Below are positions 10,088 to 22,279 of a DNA stretch of 22,447 nt, in pieces; position 1 is the first letter of the stretch, and each line of letters opens with the position of its first letter. Source of the stretch: a virus; IMG/VR virus record IMGVR_UViG_3300022932_000025, positions 1 to 22,447 of that record; one strand, written 5' to 3'. A model generated the notes under the pieces. That model had not been told where the DNA came from, made no database searches, and was given only the letters and a program-made list of their open reading frames with translations. The position numbers and the translations under genes are program-made.

Positions 10088-10504
10088 TTAAGCTACAACA
10101 GCAGGAAGCAATGCGCCAGAACCTTCAATATCAGAAGTCCATGTAACAGCATCTTCGTAAGTTCCTGAAATACTCGCAGAGGTAAGAACGCCCGTTCCTG
10201 TATATTGATAAGAACCAGTAGTATTTCTACCGAACATAACTTGAATAGGCGCACGGTTAACAGCTAGTGTTTGTAGTTCTTGATAACCTACTTGCCCTGT
10301 TGGTGGTGCATAATCAACAATACCAGACAAAGAACAACTCCATGCGCGTTGACCTGCCAATACTTCTTTCCATCCACCAGAGCCTCTATGAGAAACATCA
10401 ATACTACTCATAGTGATTTCTAGTGATAAATCGCGTGTGGCGTAAATCTCTTTATTGGGAGTGCCTATAATAAATACCTTGAATTCTGTTCCATTAAATG
10501 TCAT
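10088..10504 (-). CDS. Major tail tube protein
   Basis: This 138-residue protein matches the TP901-1-type major tail protein family in length and pattern. It starts MTFNGTEFKVFI, has IYATRDLSLEITMSSIDVS, and carries the WKEVLAGQRAWSCSLSGIVD signature (assigned to disulfide-free strand pairs in related tubes). GTGVLTSASISGTYEDAVTWTSD near the C-terminus is typical as well. Hexamers of this protein stack to form the tail tube. It sits between the tail terminator and the chaperone genes, as in most siphoviruses. The ATG at 10504 is directly preceded by GGTAGAGGCG, a sequence also found before two other genes in the window. Confidence 0.9.
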   Translation of the reverse strand: MTFNGTEFKVFIIGTPNKEIYATRDLSLEITMSSIDVSHRGSGGWKEVLAGQRAWSCSLSGIVDYAPPTGQVGYQELQTLAVNRAPIQVMFGRNTTGSYQYTGTGVLTSASISGTYEDAVTWTSDIEGSGALLPAVVA

Positions 10505-11449: not shown

Positions 11450-11799
11450 ATTACACTAGGTTTAATCTCCTTAGTAGCCTCAAAAGTCAATAGCCTTCTT
11501 ACCGTATCTGTTTCTGTAACTGACCCTATTAAGTATTTAGCTTCATATCTATCATACATAATCATATCAGTATAAACCATGTGCTCCTTGCTCCATCTGA
11601 TAGTTACTTTATACATTTGCGACAAATCTTTTTTATCGTCATTGTAACTATTGTAACTATTCATTTTAACTATCTTGCCAAATGTTTTAAAAGCTAATAA
11701 CTCAACTTTCTTAGACCCGCCTGAATTATTCTTTTCACGGTCAAGTTTATTAAATATTAAAGGTTCTCGTAAGTCTCCCGGATTGATAGCTACTCTCAT
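11446..11799 (-). CDS. Head-closure protein (SPP1 gp16-like head-tail adaptor)
   Basis: This 117-residue protein begins with the family hallmark of head-tail adaptors: NPGDLREPLIFNKLDRE, the usual ...GxLR..i.i...... start. It continues with strands containing YKVTIRW and MIMYDRYEAKYLIGSVTE, where YLIGSV corresponds to the conserved (Y/F).I.... core. Such proteins form the stopper ring beneath the connector and keep DNA inside the filled head. The ATG overlaps the preceding connector stop by four bases, and its own stop overlaps the gp10-like start in the same way. Confidence 0.8.
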   Translation of the reverse strand: MRVAINPGDLREPLIFNKLDREKNNSGGSKKVELLAFKTFGKIVKMNSYNSYNDDKKDLSQMYKVTIRWSKEHMVYTDMIMYDRYEAKYLIGSVTETDTVRRLLTFEATKEIKPSVI

Positions 11800-12326
11800 T
11801 GGAAAGCATTTTTACGTGAATAACGCTTACAAGTATTCTTCCAGTCGTTACCAAACGTTTGAATAGTTTGATTGCCTCCAATGCTTATCCCTGTTCTTTG
11901 CTCGAAATTATCGCTAGCCAATTTTAAGATAGCTAATTTTAATCCTTGTGGTATCGGCTTTTCAAATCCTGTTTCGTATGTAATAGTAGTAGGGTATATT
12001 CTTTCTGCTGTAACGCTTTTAAATGCACCACCATAAGAAAGTACTTCTATTTCATCTATGCCGTCAGAAACGCTAATAATATTCTTAACAGGGCCATAAG
12101 GCAATTCAGAACTACATAAAGTTTTCCATGAAGCAGTTATAGTAGAATCAACTAATGATAATCCCGTATAATTTTCTACGTCTTCACGAGCTGCAACTAA
12201 TAGCTCTTCAAGCAAATCGTTATGTTCATCAAAATCAATAGCTAAATGCCGTTTAATTGCATCAAGATCGACTGGTTCAGCACCAAACGCCTCTCTTTCT
12301 ACCGTTAAACCGCTGTTTACTATCAT
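11796..12326 (-). CDS. Head-tail connector protein (HK97 gp6-like)
   Basis: The 176-residue product has the gp6/gp15 connector signature. Residues about 18-58 read VDLDAIKRHLAIDFDEH, then LLEELLVAAREDVENYTG, which are the two characteristic helices. A strand region (ITASWKTL; IEVLSYGGAF; TITYETGF) follows, and a C-terminal helix (GLKLAILKLASDNFEQR) is also typical. Rings of this protein sit on the portal and connect to the stopper. The start overlaps the preceding small gene by four bases (ATGA). The Arg/Lys-rich end (KNTCKRYSRKNAFQ) is usual. Confidence 0.85.
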   Translation of the reverse strand: MIVNSGLTVEREAFGAEPVDLDAIKRHLAIDFDEHNDLLEELLVAAREDVENYTGLSLVDSTITASWKTLCSSELPYGPVKNIISVSDGIDEIEVLSYGGAFKSVTAERIYPTTITYETGFEKPIPQGLKLAILKLASDNFEQRTGISIGGNQTIQTFGNDWKNTCKRYSRKNAFQ

Positions 12327-12598
12327 TTCTTGATTACTTTTTTCTCTTTCTTATCTTCAATAATTACCTTCTCTTTTTCTACGCCTACTTCGATCTTTTC
12401 AGGCGCAAAAACTACGTCTTTATCAACCTCAATCGCATGCTCTACGTTAACGTCTGATTCCGCTGTTGATCTTACCACAATCCCTAGTTCTACCAGCTCT
12501 TGAACCCTTCCTTTGGCTACCTTGAAAACCTCTCCCTCTTCGTGAGATAGACCAGTTGCTGAATCCATTACTCTTTTTAATGCTCTTACAGATTCCAT
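12323..12598 (-). CDS. Small head-region protein of the short 'VxELxxLGxV' type, copy 2
   Basis: The 91-residue protein has an N-terminal module of about 45 residues (VRALKRVMDSATG, EGEVFKVAKGRVQELVELGIVV) and then a charged Val/Glu/Lys tail ending EKKVIKK. The module resembles small proteins common between capsid and connector genes, whose usual pattern is a short strand, a G-x-V/F strand and a helix ending ELxxLGLV. Their function is not established; a minor head or decoration role is possible. The preceding gene (12605-12910) has the same two-part design and looks like a paralogue. The stop overlaps the connector start by four bases. Confidence 0.7.
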   Translation of the reverse strand: MESVRALKRVMDSATGLSHEEGEVFKVAKGRVQELVELGIVVRSTAESDVNVEHAIEVDKDVVFAPEKIEVGVEKEKVIIEDKKEKKVIKK

Positions 12599-12604
12599 AG
12601 GTCA

Positions 12605-12910
12605 TTAGATCTTTTTAGGTTTGGCTTCTTTAACTTCGCTCACCTTTGTTTCTTCCTCTTTAACATCCTCTTTTACAGAAGTAAGTTTTACAGGTTCAGC
12701 AGCTTTGACATTATTAGCAGTCATTACACCTACTTCACGTTTAGGCTTTTCTTCAATATCAGGATTGCCTTCTACAAGTTTAACTACTCCAAGATCAGCG
12801 TATTCTTTCGCCATATCTTCGTACATCTTGTATTTTCCGCCTTTACTAACTGGTTTATCTGTTAAACCGTCAATAACGTTTTCGATTGCCTCAACTGTTA
12901 CTAGTTTCAT
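12605..12910 (-). CDS. Small head-region protein of the short 'VxELxxLGxV' type, copy 1
   Basis: The 101-residue product has an N-terminal module (NVIDGLTDKPVSKGGKYKMY, then AKEYADLGVVKLVEG) that aligns with the module of the next gene. A low-complexity tail rich in Lys, Glu, Val and Pro follows (VKEDVKEEETKVSEVKEAKP). The tail is probably disordered. Six bases separate it from its downstream neighbour. I know no proven function for this type; its place in the head-tail cluster suggests a virion or assembly protein. Confidence 0.7.
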   Translation of the reverse strand: MKLVTVEAIENVIDGLTDKPVSKGGKYKMYEDMAKEYADLGVVKLVEGNPDIEEKPKREVGVMTANNVKAAEPVKLTSVKEDVKEEETKVSEVKEAKPKKI

Positions 12911-12921
12911 ATTGATGATAA

Positions 12922-13149
12922 TTAAAGGTCAAATTTGAAAGCCTCTGTTGGATTTTCTTGCATTGTATTTAGCGTACCGTTTTGTTTTGCTTCTAGGTAT
13001 CTAACAATATGAACAAAGAATCCAAAGTCACGGAAATAATCATTTTTCTTTTCAGCTGAATATTCGTGGAATTGTCTATCTTCTAAATCAATTCCATTAT
13101 ATAACATAATGGCCTCACTTGCTACTTCTTTAATTTCTTTGATGTTCAT
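12922..13149 (-). CDS. Hypothetical protein downstream of the glycosyltransferase
   Basis: This is a 75-residue product if translation starts at the ATG at 13149. That start overlaps the glycosyltransferase stop by four bases (ATGA), so I prefer it to a start at 13185 that would overlap by 40 bases. The sequence is mainly helical and mixed in charge: MNIKEIKEVASEAIMLYNGI, then DYFRDFGFFVHIVRYLEAK. It has no membrane segment or recognised motif. It may belong functionally to the glycosyltransferases through coupling, or to the following head genes. I do not recognise the family. Confidence 0.65.
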   Translation of the reverse strand: MNIKEIKEVASEAIMLYNGIDLEDRQFHEYSAEKKNDYFRDFGFFVHIVRYLEAKQNGTLNTMQENPTEAFKFDL

Positions 13150-14102
13150 TGTAAATAAGGTTTTGTTTTTATAACTTCTAACCAATTATTGAAATTCTCT
13201 AATTGTAGAAGAGGGTCTAAGTCTAATGCTCTTTGGTATACTTTGTCTGATTGACTTTTATATACCTTTGTATCTTGTAAGTTTTTTATCTCTTTCTCCC
13301 ATGCGTCTAAATCATTACGATCTACAAATATGCCCGAACCAGATAAGCTACTTCTTAATCCTTCGTTATTTGAAGCTATTACAGGAATACCCATACTTGC
13401 CGCTTCTATTGCTACTTGTCCCCAACTTTCATAATTACTAGGAATAATTAATATTTTCGTGTCTTTTAAATATTCCTTAATATCTTTTGATTGAGGAACA
13501 TACTTGATATTCTTTAATTTCGTATCTTTGATCTGGTTGTAATAACCGCCTTCAACACCCATAAACTGTGTATCTGGCATTTTTTTAGCTAAGTCTGATA
13601 ATATTTGACCGCCTTTGTTTTCATTCAAATTAATAAGCGTAACGTATTTAGCACCCTTATTACTAACCCCTTCATAATCTCTATAATCAACAGGCGGGTT
13701 TAAAATAATACCTTCCTGTTTATATTGTAGTTCTTTCTTAACCCAATCACTATTATAAACTAAGTATTGATTAGGTATTAAACAGCGTAAAAAACTATCA
13801 TTATGGCTGTTATGAATAATATGAACTACTTTCTTTTTGTAGTATTTCGAGGCGTTCTCTGTGTGGCCTGTACGATCCAAATGAGTAAAAACCAAATCAG
13901 CTTCTTTCCATAACGTATGAACTCTCTCCGACTTAGCATTATTCCATATTGTTACGCCTTCAAATACTGTATCTTCATTAGGAGCTAATACTGTTACTTC
14001 ATGTCCTTTATTTACAAGAAACTTAGCCATTCTGTGTGCCATAGTTTCAGCACCAGCCATTTGATAAGGTACGCTTGCGTGAAGGTTAAAAAGGAATTTC
14101 AA
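13146..14102 (-). CDS. Glycosyltransferase, GT4-like (GT-B fold)
   Basis: This 318-residue protein has the plan of family 4 glycosyltransferases. The N-terminal Rossmann half has the acceptor-side motif GAETMAHRMAKFLVNKGHEV (residues 17-36). The C-terminal half holds the nucleotide-sugar site with PSNYESWGQVAIEAASMGIP (221-240). E225 and E233 form the E-x7-E motif of retaining enzymes, and VIASNNEGLRSSL and GIFVDRND follow as usual. The length is slightly short, about 320 against the usual 350-400 residues. It probably transfers a sugar from a nucleotide donor; the acceptor is unknown. It is coupled to the GT25-like gene by a four-base overlap. Its site, between the capsid and connector genes, suggests a virion protein or host surface glycan as target. 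Confidence 0.88.
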   Translation of the reverse strand: MKFLFNLHASVPYQMAGAETMAHRMAKFLVNKGHEVTVLAPNEDTVFEGVTIWNNAKSERVHTLWKEADLVFTHLDRTGHTENASKYYKKKVVHIIHNSHNDSFLRCLIPNQYLVYNSDWVKKELQYKQEGIILNPPVDYRDYEGVSNKGAKYVTLINLNENKGGQILSDLAKKMPDTQFMGVEGGYYNQIKDTKLKNIKYVPQSKDIKEYLKDTKILIIPSNYESWGQVAIEAASMGIPVIASNNEGLRSSLSGSGIFVDRNDLDAWEKEIKNLQDTKVYKSQSDKVYQRALDLDPLLQLENFNNWLEVIKTKPYLQ

Positions 14103-14674
14103 AATAATCTTGATTTAGATGCGTCCCAAACTTCTTTTAAATTAACATACTTGCCTTGAATATCGCTTTCTGTTGACTTTTGGAATGCAATCATTGGTCT
14201 TATAACAAAACATTTTCTGATAGGCTGTGCATTTACTCTCATCCATTCATCAAATATTAACTTACCGTCCCAATTCTCTAATACCCAATCTCTAAACCTC
14301 TTGCTATATAATACTGCATGTGTAGTCCAAGCATTTTCTAGTACTGAAAGATTTTTGCTATATCTTTTTTCGTGGAAAGACTGTAAGTTAGCACCAAGCC
14401 AGAAAGCGTCATAGTCACTCGGAAGCTCTTGTAGTACGTCCCTGTTAAAGTACTTTTCAAAGTAGCAATCATCTTCAAATAGAAATAAATTCTCTACATC
14501 TTTGTATTTTTTAAATACTGCTAATATAGACTTATTAAAACCTACCCATCCAATCTCATCTTCTATCCCTGCAAACCTTTCAAATTCTATTTTTTCTCTA
14601 TTTAATTGAAAAGTAACTTCTTCAAGTCTATCTTTCCTTTTATCTAAATTTAAAACAACAGCTTTGAATTGCAT
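14099..14674 (-). CDS. Glycosyltransferase, GT25-like
   Basis: The 191-residue product carries motifs of GT25 (LPS/procollagen galactosyltransferase-type) enzymes: VVLNLDKRKDRLEEV at the N-terminus (residues 6-20) and LFLFEDDCYF with E67, D68 and D69. The acidic triad sits where the metal-binding DxD-like motif of the GT-A fold is expected. AFWLGA and HAVLYSKRFRDW in the second half also fit. The length is close to the single-domain bacterial enzymes (about 200-250 residues). It starts 48 bases after the major capsid stop, past a hairpin, and overlaps the GT4-like gene by four bases. The two probably act in sequence on one acceptor; this is inference. Confidence 0.8.
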   Translation of the reverse strand: MQFKAVVLNLDKRKDRLEEVTFQLNREKIEFERFAGIEDEIGWVGFNKSILAVFKKYKDVENLFLFEDDCYFEKYFNRDVLQELPSDYDAFWLGANLQSFHEKRYSKNLSVLENAWTTHAVLYSKRFRDWVLENWDGKLIFDEWMRVNAQPIRKCFVIRPMIAFQKSTESDIQGKYVNLKEVWDASKSRLF

Positions 14675-14687
14675 AGGTTAGAAATAT

Positions 14688-14715
14688 AGGAGTAGCCTAA
14701 TTAAAGACTACTCCT
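14688..14715 (-). terminator. Hairpin after the major capsid gene
   Basis: A perfect 8-base inverted repeat (AGGAGTAG / CTACTCCT) with a 12-base loop begins seven bases after the capsid stop codon. It is followed by an AT-rich stretch but not a clean U-run. It could be a partial terminator that lowers expression of the glycosyltransferases relative to capsid protein, or an mRNA-stabilising stem. The glycosyltransferase start lies 14 bases beyond it. Confidence 0.55.
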
Positions 14716-14721
14716 TGAATA

Positions 14722-16047
14722 TTATGAATAAATTGTAGCAAGGTTTGCTTTCATGAAAGCCGCCGTTTGATATTTCGCAAGAGCTACGCGTTCTTCGATA
14801 CGTAGAGTAACCAAGTTACGTACAAAGTTGTCAGTATCTTCGTAGCTAATATCAAATGAGATACCTTCACGAATCAAAAGCTCTGCGTAATCCCATTGGC
14901 CTACAAGGGCTGTAAGACGAGCAATACGGTTTGATTTATAAATCGGAATTCCCATGAAAGTTAGCAAAGAACGATCTGCACCACCAAATACAAGTCCCGG
15001 AAAATCAAATTCGCCAGTCGTAGTTTTGTAAACAAGTAGACGAGCATAATCGCGAGGGTGTAAAAGAATACCGTTCGTATTATAATTAAGCGTTTCTTGT
15101 TGCGCTACCATATCAACCAGATATTCAAACAAAGTAACATAAGTTGCCTCTGTTTTTACGTATGCGGTTGCGGTTGGAATAATTCCGTCAAGACGGTTGT
15201 TAGTCGCATCACCATACAAAATTTGGGTATCTTCGTAGTTCAAAAGATCCTCTGTCATTCTGCGTGAAGCGTAACCAGAAAGCCACGATATGTCGGCAAG
15301 TGATTGACGAGATACCTTCATCCAAACAGCCAACTGAGCGGGAACGATATTAACCATTGTTAAATCGTAATCAATCTGCGGCTTAATATCGCCTTCATTC
15401 TGTTGGTATCCAACTCCGCCTTCACCACCGTTTTCACGAGGATAAGAGAAGATTGCATTTCCAAGCGTTCCTTTCGGAAGGAGTTGGCGAATATGCGTCT
15501 TGTTTTGAGGAGTTAATACAACATCCTGAGAAATATCACGACTAGCATAACCATTTGTAAGGTTAGCAGTTGTCATTGTTCCTACGGCCTTTGTAGTGAA
15601 ATCTCTTACGCCATACTGACCATCATTCAAGAATACACGGTCACTTTTAGTGAAGTTAGGGCTAAGAGAACCTCTTTCTTCAAATTGCGCAAACGCATCC
15701 TGAATCTGAGACTTCATAGATTTAATACGAGCCTCATGACTACCACCCGGAAGAGATTCAGCATTTAGGCGAGTTGCCAACGCTTTAATATCTCCACCTT
15801 GTTCTTCAAATTTCTTAACTAGCTCATCATATTTTTCGCCAGCACCTTTTAGTTGTGCTTGTAGCTCATTGATAGAATCTCCACTAGCTTTTACTTTAAT
15901 TTGTTCTTCAAGTGATTTAATGTATAGATTTACATCTGCGTTCACTCGGTCAATTTTGGCTTCGGATGCCGCCTTATATTCCGATACTTCTTTTTTAAGC
16001 GGAGCAACTTCTGACTTCAACGCTTCAACTAGTTCTTTTTCGTCCAT
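14722..16047 (-). CDS. Major capsid protein (HK97 fold) with N-terminal coiled-coil scaffold domain
   Basis: This 441-residue protein has a charged heptad-like region at residues 1 to about 95 (KKEVSEYKAASEAKIDRV; SLEEQIKVKASGDSINEL). It corresponds to the delta/scaffold domain removed by the protease in HK97-type phages. The capsid fold follows from about residue 150: TKAVGTMTTANLT, then FSYPRENGGEGGVGYQQNEG, PAQLAVWMKVSRQSLAD, DTQILYGDATNNRLDGI, GILLHPRDYARLL, FMGIPIYKSNRI and a final strand-rich end. These match the TIGR01554/Phage_capsid pattern. The ATG overlaps the protease stop by one base. The gene looks more GC-rich by eye than its neighbours, possibly because of high expression. The cleavage site cannot be fixed from sequence alone. 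Confidence 0.93.
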   Translation of the reverse strand: MDEKELVEALKSEVAPLKKEVSEYKAASEAKIDRVNADVNLYIKSLEEQIKVKASGDSINELQAQLKGAGEKYDELVKKFEEQGGDIKALATRLNAESLPGGSHEARIKSMKSQIQDAFAQFEERGSLSPNFTKSDRVFLNDGQYGVRDFTTKAVGTMTTANLTNGYASRDISQDVVLTPQNKTHIRQLLPKGTLGNAIFSYPRENGGEGGVGYQQNEGDIKPQIDYDLTMVNIVPAQLAVWMKVSRQSLADISWLSGYASRRMTEDLLNYEDTQILYGDATNNRLDGIIPTATAYVKTEATYVTLFEYLVDMVAQQETLNYNTNGILLHPRDYARLLVYKTTTGEFDFPGLVFGGADRSLLTFMGIPIYKSNRIARLTALVGQWDYAELLIREGISFDISYEDTDNFVRNLVTLRIEERVALAKYQTAAFMKANLATIYS

Positions 16048-16790
16048 TACTTAAATGCCGTTTCGATGATTTTTCTGTAATCCTTTTTCACTTCTTTCAC
16101 CCTCTCTACATCATTTATCAACGGCAAAGTGGCAAGTAATTCCGGCTTTGTGTCTGGTATAATTGTAGCTATTTCTTCTATTGAGTTCTTTGTCAAATAT
16201 TCTAAGGCTTGTTCGTGTAAGCCTTTTAGAGATTTTTCTATCTGTATAAATGATTCATCAGAGTAGCTAGCAACTTTCATCGCTTTCTCCATTTTACGAA
16301 TCATTTCAATTATTTCTTCAAATGATTTTATTCCTGTTATGGGAGTATTAATATTTGCCGCCCATGCTTGAATTCCAGATCCTTCATACAATTTCATTTC
16401 TGTAATTATATTTGTACTTGAATCTTGTTTGTTTTCTTTAATTACCGAAAATCCAACGCTATGTGATTGGATTATACCGTCTTCCGCCATCAATAAATAG
16501 TCAACAGCGGTTTGGTGTCGACCCATTAGTGATTCAAATTTTAAGCCGTAGTTATCCTCTTCAAGAGATTGGATTTTACCTACTGCTTTAAACCTGTCAT
16601 GGTCTAATAAATGTAAGATTTGTTTTGTCCCGTTTGGGCCTCGTTCGGCTATTGTTTTAGCGTATGCGCCCTTTCTAATAATATCTCCATCAGAATCTTT
16701 GCTATCAAATGCAGAAAAGTATCCGACAATTCTCCTCCCGGTCACATCTACATCTACACCAAAATTGTCGGATAAGCTTTTAAATTCCAT
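16047..16790 (-). CDS. Prohead protease (HK97 gp4-like, U35/S78 family)
   Basis: The 247-residue protease cleaves the capsid scaffold domain and itself during head maturation. The start MEFKSLSDNFGVDVDVTGRR followed by IVGYFSAFDSKDSDGDIIRKG is the standard N-terminus of the family. Catalytic residues are visible: H64 in LLDHD, S111 in SHSVGFSV and E136 in KLYEGSG. The frame extends to a TTG at 16820, but I choose the ATG at 16790. It is preceded by TAGAGGCGAA, it fits the family N-terminus, and a possible promoter element lies at 16823-16830. It opens the second block of structural genes after the plus-strand island and overlaps the capsid start by one base. Confidence 0.9.
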   Translation of the reverse strand: MEFKSLSDNFGVDVDVTGRRIVGYFSAFDSKDSDGDIIRKGAYAKTIAERGPNGTKQILHLLDHDRFKAVGKIQSLEEDNYGLKFESLMGRHQTAVDYLLMAEDGIIQSHSVGFSVIKENKQDSSTNIITEMKLYEGSGIQAWAANINTPITGIKSFEEIIEMIRKMEKAMKVASYSDESFIQIEKSLKGLHEQALEYLTKNSIEEIATIIPDTKPELLATLPLINDVERVKEVKKDYRKIIETAFK

Positions 16791-16820
16791 TTCGCCTCTA
16801 TCAAATTCACGTATAATCAA

Positions 16821-17081: not shown

Positions 17082-17393
17082 ATGCAAGAGTTAACGGACG
17101 AAGAAAAAGAAAAGCTGTATTTAAATCCAGTCGTTTCAATTGAAGAAGGATTAAGGAACAAGATAGCAAGATTCCCTAGTAAAATTAAGGATACCGAAAA
17201 AGACTTAGCAAAATTAATAGCTATTAGGGATGATAAATTTTCAGAAGAGGTAAGGATTGAGTTTAATTATATAGGAATTAGCAAAAAAGAAGTTGTTGTT
17301 AAGATGTACAAGATTCTCATTGCTGACTGGAAGAAAGAATTGAAAGAAGCTAAGTTAGAACTTAAAAACTTGTTATATGAGCAAGATAAATAA
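17082..17393 (+). CDS. Hypothetical coiled-coil protein
   Basis: The 103-residue product is highly charged and mostly helical. Its N-terminus is ELTDEEKEKLYLNP, its centre has IARFPSKIKDTEKDLAKL, and its end, WKKELKEAKLELKNLLYEQD, forms a likely coiled coil. No catalytic motif, signal peptide or membrane segment is seen. Its last 17 bases overlap the HNH endonuclease start, so the end may have been shaped by insertion of that gene. I do not recognise the family. Confidence 0.6.
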   Translation: MQELTDEEKEKLYLNPVVSIEEGLRNKIARFPSKIKDTEKDLAKLIAIRDDKFSEEVRIEFNYIGISKKEVVVKMYKILIADWKKELKEAKLELKNLLYEQDK

Positions 17394-17991
17394 AGATGAA
17401 ATATTTTATCCGGTAATAGGCTTAGAGAAGTATTACGAGATAAACAGATTAGGGGTTGTTAGGAGTATTGATAGAACATATATTAAAGTAAATGGAGTTA
17501 AGTTTAATCATAAAGGAGCAGTTTTAACACAGAGAACCGCTTTTGGATATAAAACTGTAAATATGACAGTCTCAGAAATAGGCTATCATAAAATAATGAG
17601 AGTTCATAGACTTTTAGCTATGCAATTTATACCTAACCCTAATAATTATCCTGTCATTAATCACAAAAATGGAATTCGTGATGACAATAGATTATGTAAT
17701 ATTGAATGGGTTAGTGTTCAGTATAATAATTGGCACACATACAGTCAAGGCAGGCTAATGCACAATAGGGTATTATCTTATGATGATGTTCATTTTATTT
17801 ATCACAACACAATGGTTCCTCGTAAACCTTACAATAGACCGGGAAAATATACGATGAATGAAATGTGTGAAAAGTATAACGTAACTAAAAGAACCATCAT
17901 CAAGATTCTTAAAAAGTTATCTTACCTAGAAATGGTTAATACATTTGAAGATATAAGTTGGTATGGTGAAAAACAATTGAAACAAGCATAA
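17377..17991 (+). CDS. HNH homing-type endonuclease with NUMOD4 domain
   Basis: This 204-residue protein has NUMOD4 at residues about 8-35 (IFYPVIGLEKYYEINRLG, then VVRSIDR). The HNH nuclease core covers about 60-120: GYKTVNM, VHRLLAMQFIPNPNNYPVINHKNG, then DDNRLCNIEWVSVQYNN. H77, H96 and N108 are candidates for the metal and catalytic residues. A C-terminal helix-turn-helix (YTMNEMCEKYNVTKRTIIKIL, about 158-178) probably gives DNA specificity. Such enzymes are free-standing mobile nucleases common in phages; they cut related genomes and spread by repair. There is no intron or intein around it, and it overlaps the previous gene by 17 bases. It may have brought part of the island or simply landed in it. 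Confidence 0.9.
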   Translation: MSKINKDEIFYPVIGLEKYYEINRLGVVRSIDRTYIKVNGVKFNHKGAVLTQRTAFGYKTVNMTVSEIGYHKIMRVHRLLAMQFIPNPNNYPVINHKNGIRDDNRLCNIEWVSVQYNNWHTYSQGRLMHNRVLSYDDVHFIYHNTMVPRKPYNRPGKYTMNEMCEKYNVTKRTIIKILKKLSYLEMVNTFEDISWYGEKQLKQA

Positions 17992-18019
17992 CTTTATACA
18001 AACTCAAAAACCTACCAAA

Positions 18020-18250
18020 ATGAAAAAGAAAAAAGAAACCTCCGACGAAGAGATAAACTCAGACGCAAAGCACAGGTCAGAAGAAAAAGAATTAGAAGAC
18101 CAACGTGAAGAGGCGCGTAAAGAAATCGAAAAAGACATACCAGTTAAAAAGCGTGGCAAGTTTATTTCTTTCTTAGCTCAACTGCTTGGATTAGCTCCTC
18201 AAATTATAGGTATTCTTAAAGATACTAATGTTATTAAAAATAAGAAATGA
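18020..18250 (+). CDS. Small charged protein with C-terminal hydrophobic helix
   Basis: The 76-residue protein has a hydrophilic, helical first half (KKKKETSDEEINSDAKHRSE, then EDQREEARKEIEKDIP). After a basic turn (VKKRGK) comes a hydrophobic helix (FISFLAQLLGLAPQIIGIL, about 48-66) and a basic end. It could be tail-anchored in the membrane or membrane-active. There is no known motif and I do not recognise the family. It begins 28 bases after the endonuclease, and its stop overlaps the next start by four bases. Confidence 0.62.
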   Translation: MKKKKETSDEEINSDAKHRSEEKELEDQREEARKEIEKDIPVKKRGKFISFLAQLLGLAPQIIGILKDTNVIKNKK

Positions 18251-18588
18251 AACAAACACATGAATTCTATACAGTCATAGAAGATATATGGTACTATGAT
18301 GGGCCTTTATTAACCTACTGTAAAGATTTAGAAGGTGAAGATATGCTTCTTTATTGGGTAGACTATTCTGATAATACTAATACTTGGCTTGCTTCTACTA
18401 TTGGCGATGAACTTTATACGAAGTTTAAGAACAAAGAAGCAGATTTGAGAACTTGTGTATTAGGCGCAAAATCAAATATTTTAATAGAACTTGATATTCA
18501 TGCAAACGTCATTAGTGATAGAATTATTAATATTATAGATTTTCCTAATTATTTGCCTGAAAATGGGTGTATGTACGATATAGATTAA
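18247..18588 (+). CDS. Hypothetical protein, acidic, 113 residues
   Basis: This soluble, acidic protein has a beta-rich start: FYTVIEDIWYYDGPLLTYCK, then DMLLYWVDYSDNTNTWLAS. The YYDGPLL and WxD patterns recall a small domain of unknown function found in phages and plasmids (possibly DUF6575). This is from memory and is weak. A helix-turn (LYTKFKNKEADLRTC) and a Asp/Ile-rich end follow. It is translationally coupled to the preceding gene (ATGA overlap). No function can be assigned. Confidence 0.6.
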   Translation: MKQTHEFYTVIEDIWYYDGPLLTYCKDLEGEDMLLYWVDYSDNTNTWLASTIGDELYTKFKNKEADLRTCVLGAKSNILIELDIHANVISDRIINIIDFPNYLPENGCMYDID

Positions 18589-18594
18589 TAAATT

Positions 18595-18804
18595 ATGATA
18601 CTAAGAGTAGGGTTTAAATACAGAGTTAGAAATGAATCCGAATGCCTATTAAACGGATGGCCGGTAGAAGATACTATCATTTCAAAAGATGATTCACTAG
18701 AAAAGGACTTTATAGGTAAAAGTGGTATGAGTTACTATTCAAATGGGAGCGTTTACGGATCGATGCAAAAATGGGAAGACGATTTAATTGAAGAGATAAT
18801 TTAA
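18595..18804 (+). CDS. Hypothetical small beta-rich protein, 69 residues
   Basis: The product is a small beta-rich sequence with GFKYRVRNESE, LNGWPVEDTII, FIGKSGMSYYSNGSVYG and an acidic end, KWEDDLIEEI. The spacing of aromatic and glycine residues suggests a small SH3- or KOW-like barrel. It has six bases before it and 12 after it in the island operon. The family is not recognised. Confidence 0.55.
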   Translation: MILRVGFKYRVRNESECLLNGWPVEDTIISKDDSLEKDFIGKSGMSYYSNGSVYGSMQKWEDDLIEEII

Positions 18805-18816
18805 AATACAATAATT

Positions 18817-19104
18817 ATGACAACGAGAATAACAAGAAAAGAATTAATTGACAGAGGATTTACAGAATCTAGTGGTAGAAATGTTTTAACTAAATTACTA
18901 TCAAATGAAACGCCTCTGGGAAATTGGAAAGAAATACCTGAAAAGAAAAGAGATCATACATTATCTATTGAAGTGTATATAACTGACTTAAATGAAATAT
19001 TCTCAGTTCACTTAATGGTAAGTCCCGGAAACATTGAATTCAAATTAAAAGATAATCCGACAATTGGGGATCTGGATAGTTTAATAAAATCACTTGAATT
19101 ATGA
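18817..19104 (+). CDS. Island paralogue 1 (RKELIDRGF family)
   Basis: The 95-residue protein is the first of three tandem relatives. It starts TRITRKELIDRGFTES, has a central beta region (HTLSIEVYITDLNEIFSVHL) and ends TIGDLDSLIKSLEL. The N-terminal helix with L(I)xRGF and the C-terminal (I)xDLDxLI(K/R)xL helix are shared with the next two genes. The two ends look like a small alpha-beta-alpha domain with a conserved frame and a variable middle. Function is unknown. Similar short proteins seem common in phages and plasmids of Bacteroidota, though I could not search. The stop overlaps the next start by four bases. Confidence 0.65.
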   Translation: MTTRITRKELIDRGFTESSGRNVLTKLLSNETPLGNWKEIPEKKRDHTLSIEVYITDLNEIFSVHLMVSPGNIEFKLKDNPTIGDLDSLIKSLEL

Positions 19105-19385
19105 TAACTAGACAAGAATTAATAGATAGAGGGTTTTGCAGTAATAGGGAGTACCCAGGAGAAGGCAATGTCTTACTACTTAGATCAGTTTGGATTAGGC
19201 ACGAAGATTGTTTTTCCATAAACGCCTATTTTGAAAAAGATATTTTGAAAAATTTAACATTGGATGTTTCTATTGAATATAAAATAGAACAAGATGTATA
19301 TGATAATTTATCTACTTATTTAAATTTAGATAAAAACACGCCTATTGAAGACATTGACCATTTAATTAGAATACTTGGATTATGA
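19101..19385 (+). CDS. Island paralogue 2 (RQELIDRGF family)
   Basis: The 94-residue product has the same N-terminus (ITRQELIDRGF) and C-terminus (TPIEDIDHLIRILGL) as the preceding gene, while its middle differs (NVLLLRSVWIRHEDCFSI; LTLDVSIEYKIEQDV). The N-terminal coding DNA also resembles that of paralogue 1, so the two arose by tandem duplication. It carries two Cys and several acidic residues but no known catalytic motif. It is joined to both neighbours by four-base ATGA overlaps. Confidence 0.65.
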   Translation: MITRQELIDRGFCSNREYPGEGNVLLLRSVWIRHEDCFSINAYFEKDILKNLTLDVSIEYKIEQDVYDNLSTYLNLDKNTPIEDIDHLIRILGL

Positions 19386-19615
19386 CAAAGAACGCCTTAA
19401 TTAAATTGGGTTTTAAGCAATACAATTATATATATGAACTGCCTTTAAATAAACACGGAGTAGATATGTCAATTGTAGTCAATATGGACAACAAGGAACT
19501 TATAAATATTAGCCTTGATTGCATATTCAATAACAATAGAATTCCTGCTGTTATTCCTAATATTAAAACAATTTCTCAACTAAAAACATTCATTAAACTA
19601 CTATCAAATGATTAA
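19382..19615 (+). CDS. Island paralogue 3 (shorter)
   Basis: The 77-residue protein keeps the frame of the family: TKNALIKLGFKQYN at the start and TISQLKTFIKLLSN at the end, with a shortened middle (VDMSIVVNMDNKELINISLD). It is the most diverged of the three. Its stop overlaps the next start by eight bases, which suggests a compact co-translated operon. Function is unknown. Confidence 0.6.
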   Translation: MTKNALIKLGFKQYNYIYELPLNKHGVDMSIVVNMDNKELINISLDCIFNNNRIPAVIPNIKTISQLKTFIKLLSND

Positions 19616-19943
19616 AATACAGAAAGAAGATTACCGTATCATTGCATGGACTTGTGGCTGGTTAATTGTAGGGTTGATAATAGGCTATTCCGTTAGATCA
19701 CAATTCAAATCAATACACAACGAAGAACTAACTAACAAGGCGTTAATTATCGTGTTTAATGAACGTACTGATAACTTACTAGATAAATATCCATGTTTAG
19801 AATATAGTGATGCTCAAAAGGTTATTTTTATTCAAGGCTATAATCAAAGAATAAAAGATAGTCAAGATGAGGTTAATGCTTTTAAACTTAAATTATCAGA
19901 TGAGTTTCATAAAAAGAATTATAAACCTGAATCATTCAAATGA
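19608..19943 (+). CDS. Hypothetical single-pass membrane protein
   Basis: This 111-residue protein has a basic, short N-terminus and one membrane helix at about residues 11-29 (IIAWTCGWLIVGLIIGYSV). A soluble helical domain of about 80 residues follows (NEELTNKALIIVFNERTD; QKVIFIQGYNQRIKDSQDE). The membrane anchor plus helical ectodomain would fit a spanin-like or envelope-associated lysis or exclusion factor, but there is no specific motif. It overlaps paralogue 3 by eight bases and the next membrane gene by four. Confidence 0.6.
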   Translation: MIKIQKEDYRIIAWTCGWLIVGLIIGYSVRSQFKSIHNEELTNKALIIVFNERTDNLLDKYPCLEYSDAQKVIFIQGYNQRIKDSQDEVNAFKLKLSDEFHKKNYKPESFK

Positions 19944-20215
19944 CAATCGAACAGAAAAAACACAAAGCCAATTTAAAACTTGTTGGAGCTAATAAGTTCT
20001 GTGAAATATTTAATGCGTCTTACTATTTCTTTATGGGCGCATTATTTTCTTTGCTTTTTTCAGAAAATAGATTCGGAATAATATCTGCCATATTTTTATG
20101 TATAGGTATTATTTCAAGGATAGTTTATTATATATTTAAATCAGTATTAAAAGAAGCACTAAAAGAGTTGGATGAGATCGAGAAAGTTAAGTCTTGGACT
20201 TTCAGTAATAATTAA
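19940..20215 (+). CDS. Hypothetical two-helix membrane protein
   Basis: The 91-residue protein has a basic N-terminus (EQKKHKANLKLVGANKFC) and two hydrophobic helices, about 27-40 (SYYFFMGALFSLLF) and 46-67 (GIISAIFLCIGIISRIVYY). A charged tail follows (LKEALKELDEIEKVK). Its size and two membrane segments fit a class II holin, but no endolysin is nearby, so the role is undecided. It is the last gene of the island. Its stop overlaps the end of the convergent head morphogenesis gene by four bases, leaving no room for a terminator between them. Confidence 0.6.
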   Translation: MTIEQKKHKANLKLVGANKFCEIFNASYYFFMGALFSLLFSENRFGIISAIFLCIGIISRIVYYIFKSVLKEALKELDEIEKVKSWTFSNN

Positions 20216-21061: not shown

Positions 21062-22279
21062 TTAAATAAGAGGAAATTGTTCATCTAAGAATGGCTTGAC
21101 CACATTAAACATCAAAGCATTTGAAGCTACATTTGGGTGTACTCCATCTGTTCCGGCAGCTTCGCTATAATTTCCTTGCACCGTAGCTGTATATGCTGTA
21201 CCTAAACTTAAATACTTGGTCTTGCTATCACCTAATGTTTGCACTGTGTTCTGCATAGCCGTGCGCAATCCTACCAATTGAGCTTCTCTTGTTGCATTAA
21301 ACATTGGAGTTGGCCCTAACATCAATAATTTTGCTTGTGTTTGCATGTTTTTCTTCCATTTCACAAAATTTTGATAATCCAATGTGGCTGCTGCGAGTTG
21401 GGTGTCAATAACGGATTGTGCAGCCCCCGCAATGGTATTATTCGTTCCTGCGCAATAAACAATAAGATCCCATTTTCTTGAATTGTATAACCCATTTATT
21501 CTGTTACGTTCAAGACCTCCGGTTGTAATAGCGTGTACAGCCATTACAACCATTTCGGCATTTACACCTTTGTCATTATAATAATCACGAATTTTTGTAG
21601 TGTAAACGGCATTCGGTAAATATGTTTGCGCTGTTGCATTTAAATTAGCGCCATACTGAATTGAATCACCAATAAAAAGAATATTCTTATCAGATGTTAA
21701 GTTTAAATCGTCGGTAATATCAATACCGGAAATCCCTCCTGTAATAACAATTGCCGTTCCGTCGCTATCGTACTGGGTTATAAGAATGCGGCCATTACTG
21801 TGGAGTTTTAGACCTTTTAAGTCAAATTTAACATCTTGTCCTGGCTGTAACTGCTTTCTTAAATAAAGCACCTTTCCGCTATTAAAGGCATCATTTATTT
21901 CAATATTTATAGTTGTTTTTTTATCAGATGCTACGGAAATTTCATTCAAGACATAACAGCGTGTTGGCGGCACAAATATTTGTGTCATTGCAGAAGCTGT
22001 GTTAGGCGAAGTGGTACTATTTGAAGTGGCGGGTCTATAATCTAGCACTATCCCCCCTAATACAGGAGCTAAATTAAACCCTTCACAAAGTAACCTTTCG
22101 TCATAGGAAAGTCTATTATAAAGCCTACCCCCATCTTTCAACACATTAGAAGCATTAACCCCATCCGCGAAAGCAGTCTTAATGTTTGTAAAGAATGGAG
22201 CTAACCCTGCTAAGTAATCGCCTACTGATTTTCCTATCCTATCAGAAGCTACTTGAAGTATATCTGTTTTTAATGCCAT
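21062..22279 (-). CDS. SGNH/GDSL hydrolase-domain protein, probably a virion component
   Basis: The 405-residue protein has three parts. Residues 1 to about 80 are an N-terminal region, about 95-185 are beta-rich (IFVPPTRCYVLNEISV; YLRKQLQPGQDVKFDLKG), and about 190-405 form an SGNH hydrolase. Block I is ILFIGDSIQYG with nucleophile S206. A TTGG stands for block II, block III is CAGTNN (278-281), and block V is DGVHPN with D378 and H381. The usual Asp of the GxND block is Asn here. Members cleave esters, often O-acetyl groups on glycans. Phages use them in tail fibres and tailspikes; here the gene lies between an unknown partial gene and the Mu F-like head gene. There is no signal peptide, consistent with a virion part. 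Confidence 0.87.
   Translation of the reverse strand: MALKTDILQVASDRIGKSVGDYLAGLAPFFTNIKTAFADGVNASNVLKDGGRLYNRLSYDERLLCEGFNLAPVLGGIVLDYRPATSNSTTSPNTASAMTQIFVPPTRCYVLNEISVASDKKTTINIEINDAFNSGKVLYLRKQLQPGQDVKFDLKGLKLHSNGRILITQYDSDGTAIVITGGISGIDITDDLNLTSDKNILFIGDSIQYGANLNATAQTYLPNAVYTTKIRDYYNDKGVNAEMVVMAVHAITTGGLERNRINGLYNSRKWDLIVYCAGTNNTIAGAAQSVIDTQLAAATLDYQNFVKWKKNMQTQAKLLMLGPTPMFNATREAQLVGLRTAMQNTVQTLGDSKTKYLSLGTAYTATVQGNYSEAAGTDGVHPNVASNALMFNVVKPFLDEQFPLI

Follow-up and report, generated by a model that had tools for sequence, protein, structure and literature searches.

A glycosyltransferase pair in a siphovirus-type head operon and its association with a C-terminal serine of the major capsid protein

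Our comparative analysis of IMGVR_UViG_3300022932_000025, a linear IMG/VR virus record of 22,447 bases (hereafter the window, that is, the whole stretch of DNA analysed), draws attention to two coupled glycosyltransferases (GTs), one GT25-like and one of the GT4 type, encoded between the capsid and connector genes. We consider it likely that the two form a late-expressed module that O-glycosylates the phage's own major capsid protein (MCP), most likely at its C-terminal residue, Ser441. The arrangement itself is real and conserved; it would represent a variant of known virion glycosylation, to which the link with a terminal serine adds a new element.

Results

The two glycosyltransferases

An annotation made from the letters of the DNA alone (the original prediction) had placed a GT25-like and a GT4-like gene, translationally coupled, between capsid and connector genes. 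Both open reading frames (ORFs) are indeed intact there on the minus strand, with the gene for the HK97-fold MCP (14722-16047, minus strand; PF05065, E 2.7e-29; phrog_10, major head protein) upstream and that for a gp6-like head-tail connector (11796-12326, minus strand; PF05135, E 1.3e-11; phrog_442, E 1.8e-17) downstream. The coupling consists of a TTGA overlap, in which the TTG start of the GT4 gene at 14102 runs into the TGA stop of the GT25 gene at 14099-14101.

The GT25-like product (14099-14674, minus strand; 191 aa) passes the cut-off of the Pfam family Glyco_transf_25 (PF01755; 27.3 bits, cut-off 24), with only residues 5-38 aligned, and its AlphaFold model (pLDDT 93.6) adopts a GT-A fold. 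The best structural matches (Foldseek) are COLGALT1, mimivirus R655 and a beta-1,4-galactosyltransferase, followed more weakly by a PBCV-1 enzyme whose PDB title ties it to glycosylation of the PBCV-1 major capsid; sequence profiles rank these relatives in the same order. Invariant in a 12-member GT25 alignment are the NLxxRxDR motif (N9, L10, R13, D15 and R16), the acidic metal motif EDD (E67, D68 and D69) and Asp142. The likeness to COLGALT1 and R655, which are the top matches by both structure and sequence profile and share the GT-A fold, goes along with an identity of only 17-20%, and COLGALT1 uses hydroxylysine of collagen as its acceptor, whereas the one proposed here is a serine of the MCP. 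The presence of COLGALT1, a protein-acting enzyme, among the nearest structures was nevertheless counted in favor of MCP glycosylation.

The GT4 enzyme (13146-14102, minus strand; 318 aa, TTG start) falls in a group represented in Pfam by PF00534 and PF13692; it matches Glycos_transf_1 (PF00534) with 55.4 bits (cut-off 26.4) and PHROG 26352 (phrog_26352) with E 4.8e-58, a family entered in PHROGs as of 'unknown function'. Its model (pLDDT 92.5) has a GT-B fold of the PglA/BshA/MshA/PimA-like kind, and both glutamates of the E-x7-E catalytic motif (E225 and E233) are invariant in an alignment of close relatives. The predicted combination of GT-A and GT-B folds was thus recovered in confident models carrying catalytic motifs, and the enzyme is conserved in relatives with GTs. 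The successive addition of two sugars by the pair, also suggested by the original prediction, would be possible.

The hairpin which that prediction had noted between the capsid and GT genes is present (14688-14715, minus strand; 11 bp stem, 6-nt loop, -17.6 kcal/mol, z -4.9), and none of 200 shuffles was as good. Its interpretation as a GT-specific regulator was rejected, since relatives devoid of GTs carry equally strong hairpins after the MCP gene (median z about -4.1, against about -4.4 in relatives with GTs). The hairpin is a generic post-capsid element rather than one specific to glycosyltransferases.

Conserved placement and exchangeable partners

Searching IMG/VR with the GT sequences recovered close and distant relatives; the comparison as a whole covered ~200 related viral fragments (L-numbered below). 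Looking for the same pair next to capsid genes, as had been suggested with the original prediction, we found the order MCP-GT25-GT4-connector kept in five close relatives with both genes, among which MCP identity falls to 40% while GT identity is still 48-60% or more. The arrangement is seen again in relatives whose MCPs are as little as 33% identical and is therefore not due to chance. GT4 sits behind the MCP gene wherever the latter is in view, and a search with GT4 only showed the connector gene as the next one after it (small ORFs allowed) in 81 of 86 GT4-labelled loci. In this set, a single contig was counted four times, two contigs break off, and the distant phage TurkishDelight and an unrelated phage account for two loci.

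The interval between the MCP and GT4 genes is variable in content. It is empty in L045-L050, which have GT4 alone, and holds GT25 alone in others or, in L013, GT25 together with a Gly_transf_sug protein. A large group (L098:4470-8004 and about 60 similar loci) has a cassette of 5-6 GT- and methyltransferase-like genes between MCP and connector, encoding Glyco_trans_1_2, DUF5672, a methyltransferase-like protein (weak match) and two further proteins that appear GT-like on reading their sequences and matched no Pfam model; none of five cassette genes tested matched any PHROG. The divergent locus L243:5130-8918, counted as cassette-bearing by judgement, has two MptE-like genes, one sulfotransferase-family gene and three unassigned genes between MCP and connector, and its MCP ends in Thr. 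A sulfated capsid glycan is possible for this locus. Overall, GT4 is the constant part of the arrangement in most lineages and its partners are exchangeable. A scan of genome contigs yielded a single weak match, on a planctomycete contig (from a metagenome-assembled genome) in which no MCP was recognised.

A C-terminal serine or threonine usually accompanies the cassette

The MCP of the window ends in NLATIYS, with Ser441 (codon TCA, 14725-14727, minus strand) as its last residue. This serine is nearly invariant in the MCP alignment, while the residues preceding it vary. A terminal Ser or Thr is found in 36 of the 37 MCPs that have a glycan cassette behind them and in 15 of 103 without; after clustering at 70% identity, the figures are 11/12 and 4/14, respectively (Fisher 0.0017). 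These counts replace a first two-by-two table of terminal Ser (35/36 with a cassette and 1/54 without), which was given up after a wider search found Ser-ending MCPs in GT-less relatives. The terminal serine is encoded by AGY as well as TCN codons, so that the constraint appears to act on the amino acid. In the nearest contrast, the ATIYS end of the window stands against TSGI and VTGV in the GT-less relatives L120 and L122, the MCPs of which are 43-46% identical to that of the window, as compared to 40-41% for L004 and L006 with both GT genes and a terminal Ser; the L122 record (60.6 kb) contains no match to Glycos_transf_1. A gene of 616 aa behind the MCP gene in L214 and L215, considered as a candidate GT, reads as a lectin-type structural protein and was scored as no GT. 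Among the papers available to our literature search, none dealt with a C-terminal serine in connection with phage capsid glycosylation.

Comparison with known virion-glycosylating phages

Glycosylation of virions has been described for Che8 and its relatives by Freeman et al. (2023), whose work is summarized in passages of PMC12619734, PMC11256854 and PMC11600133. According to the passages in PMC11256854 and PMC12619734, Che8 carries glycans on its capsid protein, and glycans of Mycobacterium phages are located where their capsid and tail-tube subunits end C-terminally. Che8 resembles the window in having a phage-encoded GT cluster, a PF01755 enzyme (gp110, 32.3 bits) and an MCP ending in Ser (KTGS). 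It differs in that its hosts are actinobacterial, its GTs lie at the genome end rather than in the head operon, and GT25 is accompanied by GT2 and GT2-methyltransferase types (gp108 joins GT2 to a methyltransferase); its tail-tube protein also ends in Ser (SDGS), whereas the major tail protein (MTP) of the window ends in VVA. An apparent match of the window GT25 to gp110, obtained with a mixed model, vanished with a clean one.

Both MCP and MTP end in Ser in Che8, Dylan, prophiGD57-2, Fryberger, Poise and TurkishDelight, and the middle four carry gp110-like or annotated glycosyltransferases; prophiGD57-2 is not independent of Che8, as their MCPs are 59% identical. Six homologues of the Che8 MCP, from phages without a listed gp110 relative, end in TA, AV, PA, PA, KA and SP. 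McWolfish has no capsid gene annotated in the stretch examined for the capsid end. Dylan (Corndogvirus) comes close to the window in having a head-operon cassette (an O-methyltransferase and three GTs), placed, however, between portal and protease and composed of a different GT set. In the Streptomyces phage TurkishDelight, gp20 consists of two fused phrog_26352 domains and is encoded between the MCP and major tail genes, with no GT25 in the stretch read and an MCP different from that of the window.

As a separate observation, mEp390 (L281/L284), an HK97-type phage, encodes a glycosyltransferase resembling Che8 gp110 next to HNH genes, and its tail protein ends in SGS as opposed to VTP in HK022.

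Points against a capsid acceptor and alternative targets

Several observations weigh against a direct link between the GT pair and Ser441. An MCP tree built without the last four residues has supported branches for no more than 4 independent contrasts, of which about 3 agree and almost none is opposite, and a sign test on 4 pairs cannot reach 0.05; the association of Ser with the cassette is not phylogenetically clean. Terminal Ser occurs in GT-less relatives (L184, L203, and the L206 and L214 groups) and in the MCP of HK022 (gp5, ending SSGS), and conversely the MCP of L013, which has GTs, ends in GSA. A terminal serine is, therefore, usual in carriers but not sufficient proof of glycosylation. 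In addition, Che8 is devoid of a GT4 of the phrog_26352 family, and the window GT25 family does not match Che8 gp110 directly at the profile level, sharing only Pfam membership with it.

The Ser-ending MCPs of GT-less relatives also speak for an alternative in which virion proteins are glycosylated elsewhere, mainly on the MTP, on a fibre or in an internal loop of the MCP, and the terminal Ser is inherited by chance. The same direction is indicated by the MTPs of four relatives with GT25 and GT4 (L043, L044, L051 and L053), which end in Ser, and by the tail-tube glycans already mentioned. We nevertheless regard this alternative as unlikely. Ala or Val is the last residue of the MTP in the window, L002 and L003, and the window protein (10088-10504, minus strand; phrog_1407, E 2.2e-23; ending PAVVA) is by the C-terminal rule not a candidate acceptor; moreover, no other structural protein was found to have a comparable GT-linked C-terminus across lineages. 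In some relatives, the MTP may be a second acceptor. Of the two acceptors originally considered, capsid or fibre, our analysis favors the MCP, and a fibre is not indicated.

Modification of host surface glycans (lipopolysaccharide, LPS, capsule or glycolipid), for example to block superinfection, would be an activity of another kind. LPS-biosynthesis enzymes do occur in the GT25 and GT4 families, and the Gtr serotype-converting glucosyltransferases are likewise phage-encoded. Gtr is a membrane system with a GtrA flippase and acts on the host O-antigen. Such a flippase (PF04138) was not found in 9 longer relative records, the window itself being a 22-kb fragment, and both the fixed site of the GT genes inside the late head operon across diverse lineages and the covariation of the MCP C-terminus with the cassette make this alternative quite improbable. 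Glycosylation of modified bases in the phage DNA by GT25 and GT4 has precedents in DNA-acting phage GTs (cited in a passage of PMC12619734) but is highly improbable, as the GT genes lie among head genes and not DNA-metabolism genes, and no thymidylate-synthase/hydroxymethylase (PF00303) was found in the 9 longer relative records, which are possibly incomplete, the window being likewise a fragment.

Other features of the window

The head-tail operon of the window is siphovirus-type, reading on the minus strand: MuF-like protein, prohead protease (16047-16820, minus strand; PF04586, E 1.4e-15), MCP, GT25, GT4, small ORFs, connector, head closure, neck, tail terminator, MTP, tape measure and a tail/fibre ORF of 2403 aa that extends past the window end. 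Three small ORFs, all on the minus strand, separate GT4 from the connector gene. The first (12922-13149; 75 aa) overlaps the GT4 stop by ATGA and no relative of it was found; the second (orf101, 12605-12910; 101 aa) is kept in close relatives, and the third (orf91, 12323-12598; 91 aa) lies directly ahead of the connector gene. The adjacent orf101 and orf91 have similar starts and long charged tails, and since orf91 also matches the place of orf101 in L003, the two may be paralogues.

Between the protease and MuF genes, a block of ~10 small genes including an HNH endonuclease lies on the opposite strand (17082-20215, plus strand), much of which is kept, likewise inverted, in the 95-kb relative L002. 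Two adjoining ORFs in this block (18817-19385, plus strand) resemble tandem paralogues (MTTRITRKELIDRGF and MITRQELIDRGF), and one L002 gene matches both. A GDSL-type esterase/lipase (21062-22279, minus strand; PF13472) adjoins the head genes and is possibly a virion-associated esterase; L002 matches its residues 15-53 only, which suggests a module swap.

Discussion

The placement of GT4 between capsid and connector genes, the Ser/Thr ends of the MCPs and the occurrence of a GT25 enzyme in phages known to glycosylate their virions together best support what the original prediction had proposed, namely that the genes are expressed late and that a virion protein is glycosylated. In the scheme we favor, the coupled GT25-like and GT4 enzymes would be made late, within the head operon, and would O-glycosylate the MCP while the head is being assembled or earlier, with Ser441 as the most likely site; a short glycan would then be displayed many times over on the mature head. 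In this lineage, the first sugar is probably transferred by GT4 and the glycan then probably extended by GT25, since GT4 is the invariable component of the module and is found without partners in some relatives whose MCP has retained the terminal Ser. These GT4-only relatives also suggest that GT4 can act without a partner, although the order of the two enzymes could be the reverse. What the analysis shows directly are the identities, folds and motifs of the two enzymes, the conserved placement, the variable partners and the association with a terminal Ser or Thr; the acceptor residue, the order of the enzymes, the identity of the sugars and the benefit to the phage (e.g. shielding or adhesion) we infer.

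A broader generalization is offered more tentatively, with somewhat less than even confidence. A glycan slot between capsid and connector genes would be conserved in many uncultivated siphophage lineages, with a dedicated phrog_26352 GT4 starting an O-glycan on the Ser or Thr at the end of the MCP. This glycan would be diversified by interchangeable partners (GT25, other GTs, methyltransferase, sulfotransferase), and a terminal Ser of the capsid protein would be a general acceptor mark in unrelated phages.

Descriptions of virion glycosylation so far concern a few actinobacteriophages. If the proposed scheme is true, such glycosylation would be common in environmental phages, which would use other enzyme families for it, and would be predictable from sequence by a head-operon glycan cassette combined with an MCP ending in Ser or Thr. 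The phrog_26352 family would thereby gain a function, and the acceptor site, the order of the enzymes and the role of the capsid glycan would become directly testable.
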